Shown piece after piece: positions 11,745 to 18,957 of a stretch of 64,000 nt of DNA. The stretch comes from Bifidobacterium scaligerum (lineage in GTDB: Bacteria > Actinomycetota > Actinomycetes > Actinomycetales > Bifidobacteriaceae): contig NZ_PGLQ01000001.1 in the NCBI RefSeq assembly GCF_002802865.1, positions 310,001 to 374,000 of the forward strand, read 5' to 3'. The first letter of the stretch is position 1, and every line of letters begins with the position of its first letter. Position numbers and translations under genes: made by a program. The notes below the pieces were generated by a model. That model made no database searches. It saw only the letters and a program-made list of their open reading frames with translations, and was not told the DNA's origin.

Positions 11745-13016
11745 CTAGAACCTCCGCGCTACGTGCGCTACCAATGGCAACATGGCAACGGCCAGCATGA
11801 ACGTCATCGCCAGAACCGCTCCCGCCGGATAAACGCTGTACGCCCAGCCGTATGCGATCTGCCCAAGAGGCTGGACGCACATGCTCGTGGAGAGCGCGAG
11901 CGACATCACTTTGCCGGTCATGTCCTCGGGGCAGCTCATCTGGATCGCCGGCACGGCGATGAGGTTCGCGAGGGTGATGGCGACCATGGTTCCGCAGGTG
12001 CTTGCCGTGAGCGTCGCAAGGCGCACTCCATCGCCGGCGGGAAGCGCCATGACGAGCGCCTGGGGCAGGATGGTGAGCGAGAAGGCGGCGATTGTTGTCG
12101 GGAATCGTCGCTTGGAAAGCGACTTTGCGGCCCGTCCTCCGACGAGTGCGCCAAGCAGTCCGGATGCTCCCACGAGACCATATGCGAGACCGTACGCCGT
12201 GGAGCCGAACCCCAGCGCGGTCCGCACCATGTAGGGGAAACCGACCTCCGCATAGCCCGTCACCAGAAAGTTGAGCGCAGCGCAAAGCAGTACCAGATAC
12301 AGTACATGGGGGCGCTCGTGAGTGAGGAAACGCCCGGCGCGCACAAGGTCATCGAGGGCCGAAGTGCGCCCATCGTCACCGCGTTCGGGAGCGCCGAGCC
12401 GGATGAAGCACTCCACGACTGCGGCCGTGCCGAATCCCACGATGGTGACGCCCATCATGGGCATGGCACCCACCGCCGCGTAGAGCACGCCGCCGAGCAC
12501 GGCCGGCACGAGCGTGCTCGTCTGGTTCACCACGTTCACCACGGCCATCGCGCGACGCATCACGTCCTCGCCGTGGGAACGGAACATCTGCGGCAGCGCC
12601 ACCTGCACCGTGGGCGTCTCCATGGCATCGAGCACGGCGAGCACCACTTGCATCACGGCAATCGCCGCCAGATTGAATCCGGTGGCCGAGAAAACCGCCG
12701 CACAAACGAGCACCGTTACGGCGGAGAGCGTGTCGAGCGCCACCATGACGGTCCGGCGGTTCCTGCGGTCCGCCACCACACCGCCAAGGGGCGAGAGCAG
12801 AATCGTGGGCAGGATACTCGCCGTGAGAATGGAGGCGAACGCCGCGGCCGAGCCGGTCTCGTCAAGCACCCACATGGACATGGCGAACCGCAACATGAGG
12901 TTGGCGAAGAGCGATATGCCGAGACCTGCGACAAGCAGATAGAAGTCGCGTACGCGAAGAGGGTCCGCGGCTGGGCTGCTTTGCGGTTGAGTCGTGTATT
13001 CGGACGTGTTCGTCAT
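11745..13016 (-). CDS. MFS efflux transporter (EntS/MFS_3-like)
   Basis: 423 residues from the start at 13016, which has AAGGAAAGGA 5-12 bases upstream. The frame continues upstream to 13145 through the operator, which is not plausible. About 12 membrane helices are expected. The MFS signature between helices 2 and 3 is LGGVVADRRNRRTVMVALD, and a large loop at mid-protein carries GAPERGDDGRTSALDDLVRAGR. It is similar to multidrug and siderophore exporters such as EntS and Cmr. The gene follows its TetR regulator on the same strand and has its own copy of the TetR operator. Local base composition looks more GC-rich than the flanks, suggesting transfer. Confidence 0.88.
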   Translation of the reverse strand: MTNTSEYTTQPQSSPAADPLRVRDFYLLVAGLGISLFANLMLRFAMSMWVLDETGSAAAFASILTASILPTILLSPLGGVVADRRNRRTVMVALDTLSAVTVLVCAAVFSATGFNLAAIAVMQVVLAVLDAMETPTVQVALPQMFRSHGEDVMRRAMAVVNVVNQTSTLVPAVLGGVLYAAVGAMPMMGVTIVGFGTAAVVECFIRLGAPERGDDGRTSALDDLVRAGRFLTHERPHVLYLVLLCAALNFLVTGYAEVGFPYMVRTALGFGSTAYGLAYGLVGASGLLGALVGGRAAKSLSKRRFPTTIAAFSLTILPQALVMALPAGDGVRLATLTASTCGTMVAITLANLIAVPAIQMSCPEDMTGKVMSLALSTSMCVQPLGQIAYGWAYSVYPAGAVLAMTFMLAVAMLPLVAHVARRF

Positions 13017-13054
13017 TATTGAATTCCTTTCCTTGGCGTTCATGGACATCCACT

Positions 13055-13073
13055 CAGACCGACCGTCGGTCTG
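13055..13073. promoter_or_regulatory. TetR operator in front of the MFS gene
   Basis: An inverted repeat with arms CAGACCGA and TCGGTCTG around a CCG centre, 39-57 bases before the MFS start. It is the reverse complement, with one mismatch, of the site before the tetR gene at 13865, which makes it a strong operator candidate. Confidence 0.85.
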
Positions 13074-13100
13074 TTCTGGTGATAAAAAATGCGCCATGGC

Positions 13101-13122
13101 AAAGGACGCACAAACGTCCTTT
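13101..13122 (-). terminator. Hairpin between tetR and the MFS gene
   Basis: AAAGGACG and CGTCCTTT form an 8-base stem with a 6-base loop. On the minus strand a run of six T begins 11 bases further on. It may end the tetR transcript, so that the MFS gene is driven from its own operator-controlled promoter. Confidence 0.5.
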
Positions 13123-13166
13123 CGCTGGGGCGCCATAATGTGCAAACCAGTGTGCCCGGGTACGGC

Positions 13167-13829
13167 CTATGCGGACGCCGTTTCCCCTTCTGGCATCAGG
13201 GCTGTGAGACCCTTGACCGCTCGTGGGATGAGCGTCTCGTCGAATACCGGCACGCCGATGGCGTCGAGCATCGTGGCGAGGCAGCGGATACGCCGTTCCA
13301 TGTCGGTGCAGTCGGTGGGATAAAAGCAGGGCATGAGCCAATAGTTGCCGAGGAGCGAGAGCAGCTGCGCCGCCTCTTCGGGATATGCCGTGGGAATCGA
13401 GCCGTCCTGCACGCCCATATCGATGAGCGAGCGGAAGGACTCCGGCAGCCTTGTTGACCAGAAGCGCATATTCGCGGTGAAGAACGCGGGATCCTTGAGC
13501 AGTGCGAGCTGGGATCGAACGAGATCCAAGTGATCGGGGGCGTCCACGGCGGAAATGACGAGTGCGCGCAACTTCTCCAACGCGCTCATGCCATCACGCT
13601 CGATGAGTTCGTCGAGGAGACGCGCGGTGACGGCCCACTCGTCGGCGTTCAGCTGGTCGAGAATCGCCTCCTTCGATTTGAAATGGTGATAGAGCCCGCC
13701 TTTGGAAAGACCCAGATCGTTCAGGATGTCCTGGATGGATGTTTTCTCGTAGCCCTTCTCGGCGAAGAGCCTTCGTGCGGAATCGAGGATTCGCCGTTCG
13801 GTGTCCTCGTGGTGCGTATGGTGCGCCAT
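13167..13829 (-). CDS. TetR-family repressor of the adjacent MFS exporter
   Basis: 220 residues. The N-terminal TetR helix-turn-helix is RILDSARRLFAEKGYEKTSI then QDILNDLGLSKGGLYHHFKS. The C-terminal ligand domain is variable. It resembles the AcrR-like repressors of drug pumps. Its own promoter region carries the palindrome at 13865, and the same palindrome precedes the MFS gene 111 bases downstream. Autoregulation and control of the pump are therefore inferred. The inducer is unknown. Confidence 0.92.
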   Translation of the reverse strand: MAHHTHHEDTERRILDSARRLFAEKGYEKTSIQDILNDLGLSKGGLYHHFKSKEAILDQLNADEWAVTARLLDELIERDGMSALEKLRALVISAVDAPDHLDLVRSQLALLKDPAFFTANMRFWSTRLPESFRSLIDMGVQDGSIPTAYPEEAAQLLSLLGNYWLMPCFYPTDCTDMERRIRCLATMLDAIGVPVFDETLIPRAVKGLTALMPEGETASA

Positions 13830-13864
13830 GACCTCCTCCTTTCCCTTCGCTTCCCCAGAGCATA

Positions 13865-13883
13865 CAGACCGTCGGTCGGTCTG
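13865..13883. promoter_or_regulatory. TetR operator in front of tetR
   Basis: CAGACCGTCGGTCGGTCTG lies 36-54 bases upstream of the tetR start. The same element with one change lies before the MFS gene at almost the same distance from its start. Confidence 0.85.
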
Positions 13884-14096
13884 TCAAATGGTCGAATAGA
13901 CTATCACGCGCTGTGCTTGCATATCCACAACGCGGCAGGATAGAAAAGACTGACAAGCATCGAGCTCGAATTCAATGTGCCTGAGGCCAAATAAATGACC
14001 TTTGACATGACATGATTGCACTGTCTGGATGACTATCCGTCGACTGTGCAAGTGCGAGGGAATGGGCGGCTGTTGTGGTACTGCAAGCCGGTGACA
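13884..14096. other. Non-coding stretch
   Basis: No gene, motif or repeat is recognised before the third ychF-tail copy. Short frames here lack ribosome binding sites. Confidence 0.5.
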
Positions 14097-14122
14097 TTCA
14101 AGTTCAACGTCTAAGAAGTGAT
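14097..14122 (+). repeat. ychF 3'-end repeat, copy 3
   Basis: Identical over 26 bases to 9954-9979. Upstream sequence is unrelated to ychF. Downstream it is followed, as at ychF, by a similarly placed hairpin. Confidence 0.92.
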
Positions 14123-14138
14123 TGCTTCATAGCGTCGA

Positions 14139-14178
14139 GGGCCTTGGGATCCAAGTGATTCCAAGGCCCATGTTGTTT
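14139..14178 (+). terminator. Terminator hairpin after the third ychF-tail copy
   Basis: The arms GGGCCTTGG and CCAAGGCCC are 13 bases apart, followed by ATGTTGTTTT. The position relative to the ychF tail matches the native terminator, but the stem sequence has diverged with compensating changes. Confidence 0.75.
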
Positions 14179-14365
14179 TATCGCGCATTACCTCGCCTCG
14201 TCTCAGCTCAATGGTGCGGGATGTGAATGCTGACATGTATCAGTCACGATATCTCTCACACGTGGGAGTGGGAAATGTGGTCCGTTCGTTAGATGGACGG
14301 GCTTCGAAGTGAAGAGATAGAATGCTGTGCCGAATGGAGCCGTGGCCGGCAAGGAGTATAGCTTT

Positions 14366-14785
14366 ATGAACATCCGTGAATCGTTCGAGCGTATCATGAG
14401 CGAACAGTCGAATATGGCTTTGGCCACGGTGACGTCGGACGGCGTTCCCGATGTTCGTGTCGTCAACTTCTGCTGGCGGGCCGACACCGGTCGCGTTTAC
14501 TTTTCGACGTTCCCCGATAACGACAAAGTGCGGGAAATCGAGGCGGATCCACATGTCGCTTTCACCACCGTGCCGGCCGCCGGCAACGCTCATGTCCGCG
14601 GTAAAGGCGTCTGCCGCCGCAGCGCACTCACAATCAGCGAGATTGCCGGCGACTTCATTAGGAAGGTTCCCGCTTATCGGGGCACTGTGGAGCGGTTCGG
14701 CGACCAGTTGGTTCTCTTCGAGATCGAGTTCCATGAGGCCAGTGTGACGATCGATCTCGCACATTCGGGCACTTTGAAACTCTAA
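14366..14785 (+). CDS. Pyridoxamine 5'-phosphate oxidase-like flavin-binding protein
   Basis: 139 residues, a split-barrel FMN-binding fold as in general stress protein 26 and Pnp-oxidase-like proteins. Seen are the N-terminal NMALATVTSDGVPDVRVVNF, then GRVYFSTFPDNDKVREIEAD, then HVRGKGVCRRS. It is too short for true PdxH. The start at 14366 is chosen for the AAGGAG ribosome binding site. The frame is open to 14327. It probably binds FMN or F420 and its substrate is unknown. A truncated second copy of its 3' end lies at 10701-10805. Confidence 0.88.
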   Translation: MNIRESFERIMSEQSNMALATVTSDGVPDVRVVNFCWRADTGRVYFSTFPDNDKVREIEADPHVAFTTVPAAGNAHVRGKGVCRRSALTISEIAGDFIRKVPAYRGTVERFGDQLVLFEIEFHEASVTIDLAHSGTLKL

Positions 14786-14892
14786 TTCATTCCGAAAAAC
14801 CGTAGGTTCGCGGTTCCAATCTTCGTATGGGTAGAGTTGAACGATATCTGTTTTCGGCTGTGTTATCGTGCATAGATAGAGCTGGCGTTGCT

Positions 14893-14934
14893 CCCGGACG
14901 ATGGACAAGTACCCGGTTTGACAAGACTTGCCAT
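14893..14934 (+). promoter_or_regulatory. Guanidine-III (PRF) riboswitch
   Basis: The RNA contains the conserved blocks CCGGACGA, then UACCCGG, then GACAAGAC of the guanidine-III class. The P1 helix can form between CCGG (14894-14897) and CCGG further on. The pseudoknot pairs AUGG(A)CAAGU (14901-14910) with ACUUGCCAU (14926-14934), with one bulged A and otherwise complete complementarity. The element ends a few bases before the ribosome binding site GAGGAG of the downstream SMR gene, consistent with translational control. The gene encodes a guanidinium-exporter-type SMR protein, which fits the ligand. Confidence 0.93.
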
Positions 14935-14954
14935 ACATGAGGAGTACGACGGTT

Positions 14955-15269
14955 ATGCCTTGGTTTGTTCTTGTAGTTTCTGGCATCTGCGAATCCGTGT
15001 GGGCTATCGCACTTGACCGCTCCGAGGGATTTTCCCGACTGATCCCCACTGTGGTGTTTGTGATTGGCCTCGTTGCCAGTATGGGTGGACTCGCTTTTGC
15101 GATGAAACACATCCCTATTGGCACTTCATACGCGATATGGGTTGGTATCGGTGCGGCAATCACTGCCGTTTACGGCATGCTCAGCGGAGAGGAAGCCGTT
15201 TCACTAATGCGGATCCTGCTCATCATTGGGCTGGTCGCCTGTGTCATAGGGTTAAAGCTCATTGATTGA
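14955..15269 (+). CDS. gdx: Small multidrug resistance protein, guanidinium exporter type (Gdx/SugE)
   Basis: 104 residues with four membrane helices. The essential Glu is at position 13 (MPWFVLVVSGICESVWAIAL). The family block FAMKHIPIGTSYAIWVGIGA is present, and the protein ends IIGLVACVIGLKLID. It works as an antiparallel dimer exchanging guanidinium for protons. The start at 14955 is chosen over 14928 because GAGGAG precedes it and because the upstream bases belong to the riboswitch. The guanidine-III element immediately upstream supports guanidinium as the physiological substrate rather than quaternary ammonium compounds. Confidence 0.94.
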   Translation: MPWFVLVVSGICESVWAIALDRSEGFSRLIPTVVFVIGLVASMGGLAFAMKHIPIGTSYAIWVGIGAAITAVYGMLSGEEAVSLMRILLIIGLVACVIGLKLID

Positions 15270-15285
15270 TGACGGATATGCAGAG

Positions 15286-15315
15286 CTCGTTCCCCTCACT
15301 AGGGGGGCGAGTCTT
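15286..15315. terminator. Terminator between gdx and the convergent exporter
   Basis: CTCG-TT-CCCCT and AGGGG-GG-CGAG form a stem with a 4-base loop, followed by TCTTT. It lies between convergent genes and may serve both. Confidence 0.75.
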
Positions 15316-15367
15316 TCCATGTTGTCGCTAGAGAACAATGTAATGCCATTGTGCAAGCCGAGTTTCT

Positions 15368-16876
15368 TTACCGCAACGTCTTACGGGATATCAGCGCAAC
15401 GATTCCGAGAGTGGCGATAATGATTGCGGCTGCGACGCCGAAGCTGCCGATCATCGCTGATTCATAGGCGCGGGAAGCTACCTGCCGTATCAGCTTGCCT
15501 GTCACGCTAGTGAATTCAGTCGCCCGCTGGAAGTCCAGTGTCACGGAACCCGCGGATTGCGAGTTCAGTCCGACGGATTGTGCGAGATTATGGAATCCTG
15601 TCACATACAATCCGCTCTGTATGCTGCCGAAGATTCCTACGCCGATGATGGATCCGAATTGTCGGAATACGGTCAGCAGACTAGAACCGGCGCCGGACTG
15701 TTCAATAGGCACCCGGCTCATGGCCCAGGTCAGCATCGCCGGTTGGCCTGCTCCCAATCCGAATCCGGCTATGATCTGCCCGATCAGTACTGTCGATTGC
15801 TTCGCCGCTTCGTCATGCCACCACATGGCGGCGCCAATCGTCAGCATGCCAGCGGCCAGACATCCCAAGGCCAGCAAACTCGTACCGCGTGAACCGATCT
15901 GAGAAACAATCCCATCGTTCAACCAGGACCCCACGATGGACGCGATGACCAGTGGCGTCAATAGCATTCCTCCGACCAGCGCGTCGTGACGCAGTACGGT
16001 CTCCAAATAAGCCGGCATGATGAAGATGATGCCGTACATCGAGAAATTCAGCATCATTAACGCTGGCGCGCAGGCCGCGAATGGCGCGTCCTTCATTAAT
16101 CCGAGTTCCATCAACGGATTGTGGGATGCACGATCGTGCAGCACGAATCCCGCTATCAGCACCATGCCGATTGCCATCGGAATCCAAGCGTTCGCCGCCA
16201 GAACACCATGTTGTGCATTAACCAGACCGGCGGAGAACAGGGTGAATCCGGCGAACATCATCGCGACCGATATCCATGGCATATGCAACGACCGGGATTC
16301 GCGCGACGCGCTCGTCTGCGGAACATTTATGTGGATGACCATGATTACGGCAAGGAACACTATGCCATCAAAACCAAAGATGCCGCGCCATCCCAGCGTT
16401 GCGGTGAGCGCTCCGCCGACGAGAGGGCCGAACGGTACGCCCAATGTGCCGGCTATCGCCCATGCGGTCATGGCGCGGGACAATTCGGAACTGCGGAACA
16501 GGATGCCGAGCAGTGCTTGTCCCATTGGAATGACCACGCCTGCACCGGCACCCATAATCGACCTTGAGATGAGCAGCATTGGTATGTTCCCGGCAGCAAG
16601 ACCAATCACGGACGCGACGACGAACATTCCTAGTCCGGCAAGCATGGTCTTCAGATGGCCGAGTCTGTCGCCGAGGAATCCCGCCAGTAGCACCACGGCT
16701 GCGAACACAAGATTGTAGCTGGATACGACCCACTGCTGTTCCGCCATATCCGCTCCGAATGACTCGGTGATATCCGGCAGCGCCACATTGAACGCAGTGG
16801 TGTTGATCATCATCACCAGTTCGGCTGCACATAAGCATATTAACGATCGATTCTGATCTCTCTTCGTGTCGTCCAT
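15368..16876 (-). CDS. MFS drug exporter, DHA2 family (EmrB/QacA type)
   Basis: 502 residues with about 14 predicted helices. Typical features are FNVALPDITESFGADMAEQQ then WVVSSYNL in helix 1-2, the signature AGFLGDRLGHLKTMLAGLG, and the helix-5 drug-antiporter motif WAIAGTLGVPFGPLVGGAL. Near the C-terminus an extra loop (TGFHNLAQSVGLNSQSAGSV) lies between the last two helices. It probably exports lipophilic or cationic toxins with protons. It is divergently transcribed from a TetR gene, and two palindromes lie in the shared promoter region. Confidence 0.93.
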   Translation of the reverse strand: MDDTKRDQNRSLICLCAAELVMMINTTAFNVALPDITESFGADMAEQQWVVSSYNLVFAAVVLLAGFLGDRLGHLKTMLAGLGMFVVASVIGLAAGNIPMLLISRSIMGAGAGVVIPMGQALLGILFRSSELSRAMTAWAIAGTLGVPFGPLVGGALTATLGWRGIFGFDGIVFLAVIMVIHINVPQTSASRESRSLHMPWISVAMMFAGFTLFSAGLVNAQHGVLAANAWIPMAIGMVLIAGFVLHDRASHNPLMELGLMKDAPFAACAPALMMLNFSMYGIIFIMPAYLETVLRHDALVGGMLLTPLVIASIVGSWLNDGIVSQIGSRGTSLLALGCLAAGMLTIGAAMWWHDEAAKQSTVLIGQIIAGFGLGAGQPAMLTWAMSRVPIEQSGAGSSLLTVFRQFGSIIGVGIFGSIQSGLYVTGFHNLAQSVGLNSQSAGSVTLDFQRATEFTSVTGKLIRQVASRAYESAMIGSFGVAAAIIIATLGIVALISRKTLR

Positions 16877-16884
16877 CGATTACC

Positions 16885-16912
16885 TATCTTTAAGATACTA
16901 AGAAGTTTCTTA
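16885..16912. promoter_or_regulatory. Two adjacent palindromes, probable TetR operator
   Basis: TATCTT-T-AAGATA (16885-16897) and TAAGAA-GT-TTCTTA (16899-16912) sit side by side just upstream of the DHA2 exporter start. They are AT-rich in a GC-rich genome. The divergent TetR gene makes them its likely target. Confidence 0.7.
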
Positions 16913-17022
16913 TGAACAACATGCGATTATAGTTATCGGCAAATAAGAAACGCCATAGTATCCTGTATGTGGTATTGCAAACAATTGTTATCCACAACAC
17001 CCATGTCACTGGAGATGAGCCC

Positions 17023-17643
17023 ATGGAAGCGAACACCTCACCAAAACAGACGCGCCGCAGAGGCAAGGCTTTGGACGTAGCCATTCTGGAGGCCGCGTGG
17101 GAGCAGCTATCCGTGTGCAGCGCCGAAGAGTTCACCTTCGAAAACGTGGCCATCAGGGCGCACACCAGTAAGCCGGTACTGTACCGACGATGGCCGAATC
17201 GCACGGAATTGTTCGTGGCCGCCATGAAGCAGCATCGTGTCCATGCCGCCATCGAGCGGCCGAATACCGGCACGCTCAGGGGCGACGTCATCTCCATTCT
17301 CCGGCAGCTCAACAGCAAGCAGTCCGATGCGGTGATGGTGCTTGCCAAGTTCGGCGTCTACGCCAACTGGCTCGGCGTGAGCGCACATGAACTATACGAG
17401 CGCACGATGATTAGCGACCAGCCCAGCATCATGATGGCCATCGAAAACGCGCGGTCGCGTGGAGACGTCACTTGCGAACTACCGGAGTCTTTGCTGCGTA
17501 TGCCCGGAGAACTCGGACGTGCAATCATCCTGCGGGATATGCGCCCGCTATCCGAAGCGGACATTGTCGCCACGGTTGACGAGCTGTTTCTTCCGCTTGT
17601 CGACCATTACGAGCGCCAGGCGCGAGCCGCAGCCGACAAGTAA
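17023..17643 (+). CDS. TetR-family regulator of the divergent DHA2 exporter
   Basis: 206 residues from ATG 17023, which has GGAG 8 bases upstream; the frame continues to 16969. The HTH is LDVAILEAAWEQLSVCSAEE then FTFENVAIRAHTSKPVLYRR then WPNRTELF, an unusual long-helix TetR form with the YRRW motif seen in the TetR_C_16-like group. Its divergent placement suggests that it represses the exporter and itself. Confidence 0.88.
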   Translation: MEANTSPKQTRRRGKALDVAILEAAWEQLSVCSAEEFTFENVAIRAHTSKPVLYRRWPNRTELFVAAMKQHRVHAAIERPNTGTLRGDVISILRQLNSKQSDAVMVLAKFGVYANWLGVSAHELYERTMISDQPSIMMAIENARSRGDVTCELPESLLRMPGELGRAIILRDMRPLSEADIVATVDELFLPLVDHYERQARAAADK

Positions 17644-17793
17644 GTAATGTGTCGAACGCAGCAGCCGAAATGACGGAAAGCCCGCACGGGGCCTCCAACC
17701 CCTGTCATATACTCAAGACGGTTCGTTAGCGCGCACAAAACAGCGCAATGGCTATACAAGACTGTAAATAGCTAGGGGATAGGGAACCATCGC

Positions 17794-18957
17794 ATGAAGA
17801 AAAGCTTGCTATCGATCGCCGCAGGGGCGTTCGTACTCGGTGCGGCCGAATTCGTGATGATGGGCATTCTGCCGCAGACGGCAATCGCAATGAATGTCTC
17901 CATCCCAACCGCAGGCCACTTCATCTCCGCGTACGCCATCGGCGTGTGTGTAGGCGTCACCATGCTGGTGTTCGGTCGCAAGACCAGTCCAAAACATCTG
18001 GTGCTTCTCTTCATGGCACTTGCCTTGGTCGGCAACGCGTTGAGCGCTGCCGCGCCGAATGCCATCGTTCTTGTTGTCGCCCGATTCGTTGCGGGCCTAC
18101 CTCATGGAGCGTTCTTCGGCACAGGCACGGTGATCGCCAAAGCGCTCGCCGACAAGGGGCGTGAAGGCAAAGCGGTATCGGTGATGGTCACAGGCCAGAC
18201 CCTTGCCAATATGCTTGGTGTGCCGGCCGGCACGCTGCTTGCCGAATATCTCAACTGGCGGCTGGCCTTCATTATTCTGGCTCTTGGCGCAGGACTCACT
18301 ATCGTCCTGACCTTGGCTTGGATGCCGCTTATCGCAGCAGTGTCAGATGCCGGGCTCGCCGGTCAATTCCGATTCCTCGCCAAGCCCGGACCGTGGTTGG
18401 TACTTGGCGCTGTGTTCGTGGGTAACTCTGGTGTGTTCTGCTGGTGGAGCTATGTATCCCCATGGCTGCAGAAAACCGGTGGCTATGATTCACAGCTTGT
18501 TCCATTGCTGATGATGCTTGCCGGCTTTGGCATGGTGGTCGGCGGCCTTGCGGGCGGTCATCTTGCCGACCGTTGGCTGCACTCGGTGACTGCCGCAGTC
18601 GGCCAGACAATCTCCGCGGCGGGTCTGTTGATGGTGTTCTTGGTGCCCGGCAATCTGGCAACTTGCGCGCTGTTGACGTTCTGGATTGCGTTCGGCTTGT
18701 TCTTCATCAATGGGCCTCAAATGTTGTTGATGGCTGAAGCCGGCAAAGGCGGCGGCGAACTCATTGGCGGTGCAACAGTACAGATCGCTTTCAACGGCGG
18801 CAATGCAGTCGGTTCCTTGATCGGCGGCATGGCGTTGAACGCCAGCGGCATGAATTATCATGCCGTCGGTTTAGCCGGTCTTCCGTTTACATTGGCTGCG
18901 GTGGCGCTGCTTATCATATTCGCACTGCGTTTCGAAGGTCGTAGCCTTCAGCGCTAG
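17794..18957 (+). CDS. MFS transporter, AraJ/Bcr-like drug or sugar efflux
   Basis: 387 residues with 12 helices. The N-terminal LLSIAAGAFVLGAAEFVMMG then ILPQTAIAMNVS is the AraJ-family signature. The motif between helices 2 and 3 is VFGRKTSPKHLVLLFM, and helix 4-5 carries ARFVAGLPHGAFFGTGTVIA. This group exports arabinose-like sugars or chloramphenicol-like compounds. The substrate cannot be told from sequence. There is no ribosome binding site beyond AGGGGATAGGG, 11 bases upstream. It follows the TetR gene by 150 bases and probably has its own promoter. Confidence 0.9.
   Translation: MKKSLLSIAAGAFVLGAAEFVMMGILPQTAIAMNVSIPTAGHFISAYAIGVCVGVTMLVFGRKTSPKHLVLLFMALALVGNALSAAAPNAIVLVVARFVAGLPHGAFFGTGTVIAKALADKGREGKAVSVMVTGQTLANMLGVPAGTLLAEYLNWRLAFIILALGAGLTIVLTLAWMPLIAAVSDAGLAGQFRFLAKPGPWLVLGAVFVGNSGVFCWWSYVSPWLQKTGGYDSQLVPLLMMLAGFGMVVGGLAGGHLADRWLHSVTAAVGQTISAAGLLMVFLVPGNLATCALLTFWIAFGLFFINGPQMLLMAEAGKGGGELIGGATVQIAFNGGNAVGSLIGGMALNASGMNYHAVGLAGLPFTLAAVALLIIFALRFEGRSLQR

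Follow-up and report, generated by a model that had tools for sequence, protein, structure and literature searches.

Locus and gene content

We analysed a window (the whole stretch of 64,000 nucleotides) of the Bifidobacterium scaligerum genome, which contains, on the forward strand, a predicted gdx/sugE-type SMR guanidinium exporter gene (14955–15269, 104 aa, MPWFVLVVSGICESVW...) preceded by a Shine-Dalgarno sequence (SD; AGGAG at 14940–14944) that is conserved in close relatives. The start codon is the ATG at 14955; a TTG-started ORF at 14928 was rejected as the gene start, because the homologues align from residue 1 at the ATG. The product belongs to the SMR family (Pfam PF00893, 81.7 bits; cut-off 23.7), and its best NCBIfam match by far is SugE (NF008512, 101.8 bits). 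Since this score is below the equivalog cut-off of 126, we call the protein Gdx-type and not a SugE equivalog. The closest solved relative is Gdx-Clo (6wk5, E 1.5e-22), as compared to EmrE at 1e-7 or weaker. The two proteins align without gaps over residues 1–102 and have E13, W16, S42, Y59, W62 and K101 in common, while the window protein has D21 where Gdx-Clo has K21. E13, S42, Y59 and W62 are functional residues and W16 discriminates Gdx from Qac proteins, being conserved in the former, whereas the latter have Gly or Ala at this position (PMC7695847). All five are present in the product. The downstream gene is SugE/Gdx-like and not Qac-like, and a Qac/EmrE-type exporter is ruled out by W16 as well as by the scores. 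The Gdx-type SMR gene proposed in the initial annotation is thus borne out by the five residues, the Gdx-Clo match and the PF00893 score. It is the sole SMR gene of the genome, and its nearest named product homologues are those of B. cebidarum (95%), B. saguini (93%), B. felsineum (93%) and B. colobi (91%).

Directly upstream of this gene, Rfam cmscan of the window found a match to Guanidine-III (RF01763) at 14874–14935 (+), with 41.3 bits versus a gathering score of 36. The alignment spans all 67 model positions and the match ends 19 nt upstream of the SMR gene start. It is the single RF01763 match in the whole 2.65-Mb genome (genome-wide search, E 3.3e-7), and no guanidine-I, -II or -IV riboswitch in the window reached its Rfam gathering threshold; these classes share ligand and target gene type with guanidine-III and differ from it in fold. 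The initial annotation had called the class guanidine-III and offered the covariance score as its own test, which the leader passed; its statement that all conserved blocks are in the leader also agrees with what we see (CCGGACGA, GUACCCGG and GACAAGAC are all found in the window aptamer). The loop 5' of GACAAGAC is 2 nt below the Rfam consensus length and 1–2 nt below that of most relatives. Model scores, together with conservation, establish the riboswitch class and the gene identity as read from the sequence.

The transcript probably starts at about 14875–14878, at the beginning of the P0 hairpin described below, as judged from a probable extended -10 element (TG-T-TATCGT, 14861–14869, +). 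Of 75 homologous leaders, 21 have the motif TGnTAnnnT 19–29 nt 5' of the core, where mononucleotide shuffling predicts 1.9; a scan for a two-hexamer sigma-70 promoter found none, and the extended -10 fits better. The leader would then be about 80 nt long and probably consists of P0, the aptamer and the ribosome-binding site and nothing else. A terminator scan found no terminator between the aptamer and the gene, by which transcription attenuation was rejected, and a plasmid origin of the leader was rejected as well (no match in the plasmid collection). Downstream, in the interval between gdx and a convergent MFS gene, lies a strong hairpin (15276–15322; -25.7 kcal/mol, z -4.45; none of 200 shuffles equally stable), which lacks a long T run, was not called by the terminator scan, and is a probable terminator shared by the two genes. 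We note that the riboswitch-gdx unit lies amid three MFS efflux-type genes and two TetR-type regulators (11745–18957), a local cluster of drug-efflux genes, and that a 307-codon ORF (14240–15163, -) antisense to the riboswitch and gdx is probably a by-product of codon bias.

Structure and covariation of the aptamer

The aptamer core comprises 14894–14933 (+). P1 consists of 14894–14897 paired with 14913–14916, and P2 of eight pairs (14902–14904 with 14931–14933, and 14906–14910 with 14926–14930) with A14905 bulged. Every pair of this H-type P1/P2 pseudoknot, which the Rfam model holds incompletely, is formed in the window. Relatives from other genera commonly bulge a base at this point of P2, after the five inner pairs, so the bulged A is no peculiarity of the window. 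Upstream of the core, the 5' part of the RF01763 model corresponds to the P0 hairpin (GAGC-UGGCGUU-GCUC, 14879–14893, +; from the model match and folding), in which 14879–14882 pair with 14890–14893. The element had been annotated as starting at 14893; the core begins at C14894, and C14893 is part of P0. The pseudoknot halves given there (14901–14910 with 14926–14934) do contain P2 with its one bulged A, but we exclude the 14901–14934 pair, which would consume the A of the invariant ACGA block, and P1 was missing from that description. That the leader adjoins the ribosome-binding site was correctly noted, with the SD 6 nt past P2.

For the covariation test, 57 distinct aptamers were aligned on sequence alone, and the four P1 pairs and the five inner P2 pairs were scored. 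These pairs are formed in 99.0% of cells as compared to 80.2% after shuffling, and six of the nine show both-sided changes. The covariation score is 0.410 versus 0.090 for shuffled alignments (0 of 500 shuffles as high), and controls with slid pairings reach at most 0.071. Five versions of the P1 helix were seen (CCGG/CCGG, CCCG/CGGG, UGGG/CCCA, UCUG/CAGA and CCUG/CAGG), the exception being B. saguini, in which P1 has a C-A mismatch (CCAG). The ACGA block and GUACC are invariant across the aligned aptamers, including C6 and G17, which are ligand-site nucleotides of guanidine-III (PMC7736828).

Distribution of the aptamer and its neighboring genes

RF01763 is present in 20 of 112 Bifidobacterium genomes, and in 17 of these 20 a gdx homologue starts 10–42 nt 3' of the aptamer. 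Conversely, the aptamer adjoins gdx in 17 of the 18 Bifidobacterium genomes whose gdx homologue is 46% identical or more. In the bacterial class to which the genus belongs, 125 of 297 sampled genomes contain RF01763, and the aptamer-gdx pairing is kept in most of 80 homologous loci in Actinobacteria and beyond. Guanidine-III was originally reported as ykkC-III, from leaders of emrE and speB genes in Actinobacteria and delta-Proteobacteria (PMC2864571); guanidine binding was demonstrated afterwards, together with a prediction that the RNA exposes the SD (PMC12186494). The main known hosts of guanidine-III are Actinobacteria (PMC2864571, PMC12186494). In the guanidine riboswitch literature that we read, we found no mention of Bifidobacterium. 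The window RNA is a further member of the known class in the standard aptamer-gdx arrangement: it shares with guanidine-III the conserved blocks, P0, the P1/P2 pseudoknot and the site just 5' of the ribosome-binding site of an emrE/sugE-type gene, and it differs in its loop 5' of GACAAGAC, shorter by 2 nt than the consensus, and in its predicted anti-SD, formed by the P0 3' arm and C1 of P1 and not by the P2 3' strand. For a chance match 5' of an unrelated SMR gene we found no support and its probability is negligible, as it is ruled out by the score over the gathering threshold, the sole match in the genome, the covariation and the conserved synteny.

Several loci in the genus depart from this arrangement. 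One genome without any SMR match has a 45.3-bit aptamer at about 1523 of its locus with no gdx downstream (L087, G079), an orphan or remnant. In another (L097, G059; 519 onward), a 34.6-bit aptamer with mismatches in P1 and P2 is followed by an apparently broken gdx frame, so that the whole aptamer-gdx unit looks like it is decaying. Such decay in the genus, together with a score just 5 bits over the gathering score and the shortened loop, could be taken to mean that the window RNA too is a decayed or variant member of guanidine-III that has lost its guanidine sensing. We consider this very improbable: every core nucleotide is intact, P1 and P2 are fully paired, the gene is intact, and the core is identical or nearly so in about ten related species despite differing flanks.

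In two other Bifidobacterium genomes a guanidine-III aptamer lies directly 5' of a PaiA-like GNAT acetyltransferase gene (57.8 bits, L082 in G057, 1523–2266; 54.1 bits, L083 in G103, 1522–2090); in G057 a second aptamer with gdx follows about 0.9 kb past the first. The second-best solved relative of this GNAT is 8osp (E 9e-45), which we take to be the Lactobacillus curiae canavanine acetyltransferase. That enzyme has been described (PMC10416765) and a guanidine-IV riboswitch controls its gene (PMC9788692). Of the 112 Bifidobacterium genomes, 28 encode this GNAT family, with the aptamer before it in only G057 and G103, and none of 13 genomes of the bacterial class with that GNAT has it near a guanidine-III aptamer. 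We found no description of a guanidine-III aptamer with a GNAT gene in the literature searched. The association supports the guanidine-canavanine link proposed previously (PMC10416765, PMC9788692).

Predicted folding of the leader and control of translation

The folding and SD-opening figures given here are nearest-neighbour energies that ignore both the pseudoknot and the ligand. In the computed ligand-free fold, an anti-SD sequence UGCUCC (14889–14894, +), consisting of the P0 3' arm and the first P1 base, is predicted to pair with the SD stretch GGAGUA (14941–14946), with a core pair probability near 1; the P0 3' arm would thus serve two purposes. The pairing extends from 14880–14896 to the SD stretch and sequence beyond it, and P2 is kept as an inner stem. 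An SD:anti-SD probability near 1 was also computed for the free folds of the four closest relatives. When the 20 nt 5' of P1 were shuffled, near-1 SD pairing was retained in only 0–1 of 200 trials for the window and for each of these four relatives; the effect of upstream shuffling is weaker in the next relatives (19–61 of 200). The overall stability of the leader is not unusual (z -1.60).

Locking the aptamer lowers the computed cost of opening the SD from 6.9–10.6 to 2.7–4.1 kcal/mol in four of five transcript lengths, while for the transcript ending at 14975 the predicted effect has the opposite sign; the SD also keeps some weak pairing elsewhere when coding sequence is added to the locked-aptamer calculation. 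At -25.3, the computed OFF fold lies far below P0 plus P2 in energy (-11.0, P1 not counted), so that switching must rely on co-transcriptional folding. As the transcript grows, P0 is favoured up to base 14944 and is displaced at 14945–14946, which would leave a short window for a guanidine-held pseudoknot to block the displacement.

These calculations agree with translational control, and guanidine-III is, by prediction, a switch that turns translation on and in addition shields the mRNA from RNase E (review PMC12186494). We infer the ligand, the ON direction and the SD switching from the validated class and from the folding. In the mechanism that we propose, without guanidine the SD stretch (GGAGUA, 14941–14946) would be held by UGCUCC (14889–14894), a pairing that would open P0 and the first P1 pair, with P2 persisting as an inner stem, and the sequestered SD would exclude the ribosome. 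With guanidine, the P1/P2 pseudoknot would be held, P0 could form and the SD would be free, so that the exporter would be made and guanidinium removed. We are highly confident that the element is a guanidine-III riboswitch in the 5' leader of the lone Gdx-type SMR gene, and that it switches exporter synthesis on in response to guanidine.

Off-states in relatives

Over 79 leaders, pairing of the P2 3' strand to the SD-AUG stretch is computed at -8.38 kcal/mol, as compared to -7.12 when the strands are swapped between species (0 of 2000 swaps as good; swaps of this kind keep relatedness, so this count is no probability). The helices vary by genus (for example GACUUGCC/GGCAAGUC, GACGGCCUCC/GGAGGUCGUC and GCCAGA/UCUGGC), and a helix of this kind seems to be the one formed in most actinobacterial relatives. 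In three Bifidobacterium leaders (L009, L098 and L099), GGCAAGUC directly 5' of the AUG perfectly complements the P2 3' strand GACUUGCC, which is, by its sequence, an evident case of strand exchange that would mask the start site.

The better-than-swapped match of the P2 3' strand to the SD-AUG stretch, with helices that differ by genus, is what would favour this usual actinobacterial OFF state in the window too, in place of pairing through P0/P1. We find that quite unlikely, because the window and its four closest relatives reach only -3.3 kcal/mol for this helix (96th–97th percentile, among the worst of the 79 leaders), versus -12.5 to -16.0 kcal/mol for the P0/P1 strand with the SD. It is likeliest that the lineage of the window hides the SD with the other aptamer strand, P0/P1. 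A more specific proposal, which we hold tentatively and at a little under even confidence, is that in B. saguini, B. cebidarum, B. felsineum, B. colobi and the window species the widespread helix of the P2 3' strand with the SD-AUG stretch has been lost and an aptamer-spanning helix between the P0/P1 5' strand and the SD has taken its place; if true, the same aptamer would gate translation via its other strand. The P0/P1:SD pairing shows no clear coevolution over all leaders (120 of 2000 swaps as good). It is possible in Blastococcus and others too, and may therefore be an old alternative and not a new one.

Guanidine could also act mainly by protecting the mRNA, with the compact aptamer blocking RNase E scanning and little direct control of the SD. 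Such protection is reported for guanidine-III (review PMC12186494, citing Richards and Belasco 2021), and it would suit a short leader with the aptamer near the 5' end. As the main mode of action we regard it as unlikely, though less so than the usual OFF state, since the SD is sequestered in the ligand-free fold and the ribosome-binding region coevolves with the P2 3' strand class-wide, both of which point to direct control of the ribosome-binding site. RNase E protection and such direct control are compatible in one RNA.

Implications

The difference in expression platform is a modest refinement of a known class; the comparative set suggests that one small aptamer has been coupled to the ribosome-binding site via either of its strands. 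In B. scaligerum, the riboswitch probably turns on the exporter when toxic guanidine accumulates. By analogy with the validated class, Bifidobacterium, with its host-associated species, would be a further genus that both senses guanidine and exports it, a point relevant to the sources of guanidine in animal hosts. Few regulatory tools exist for this genus, and a leader of about 80 nt with an aptamer of about 40 nt would provide a small and testable switch.
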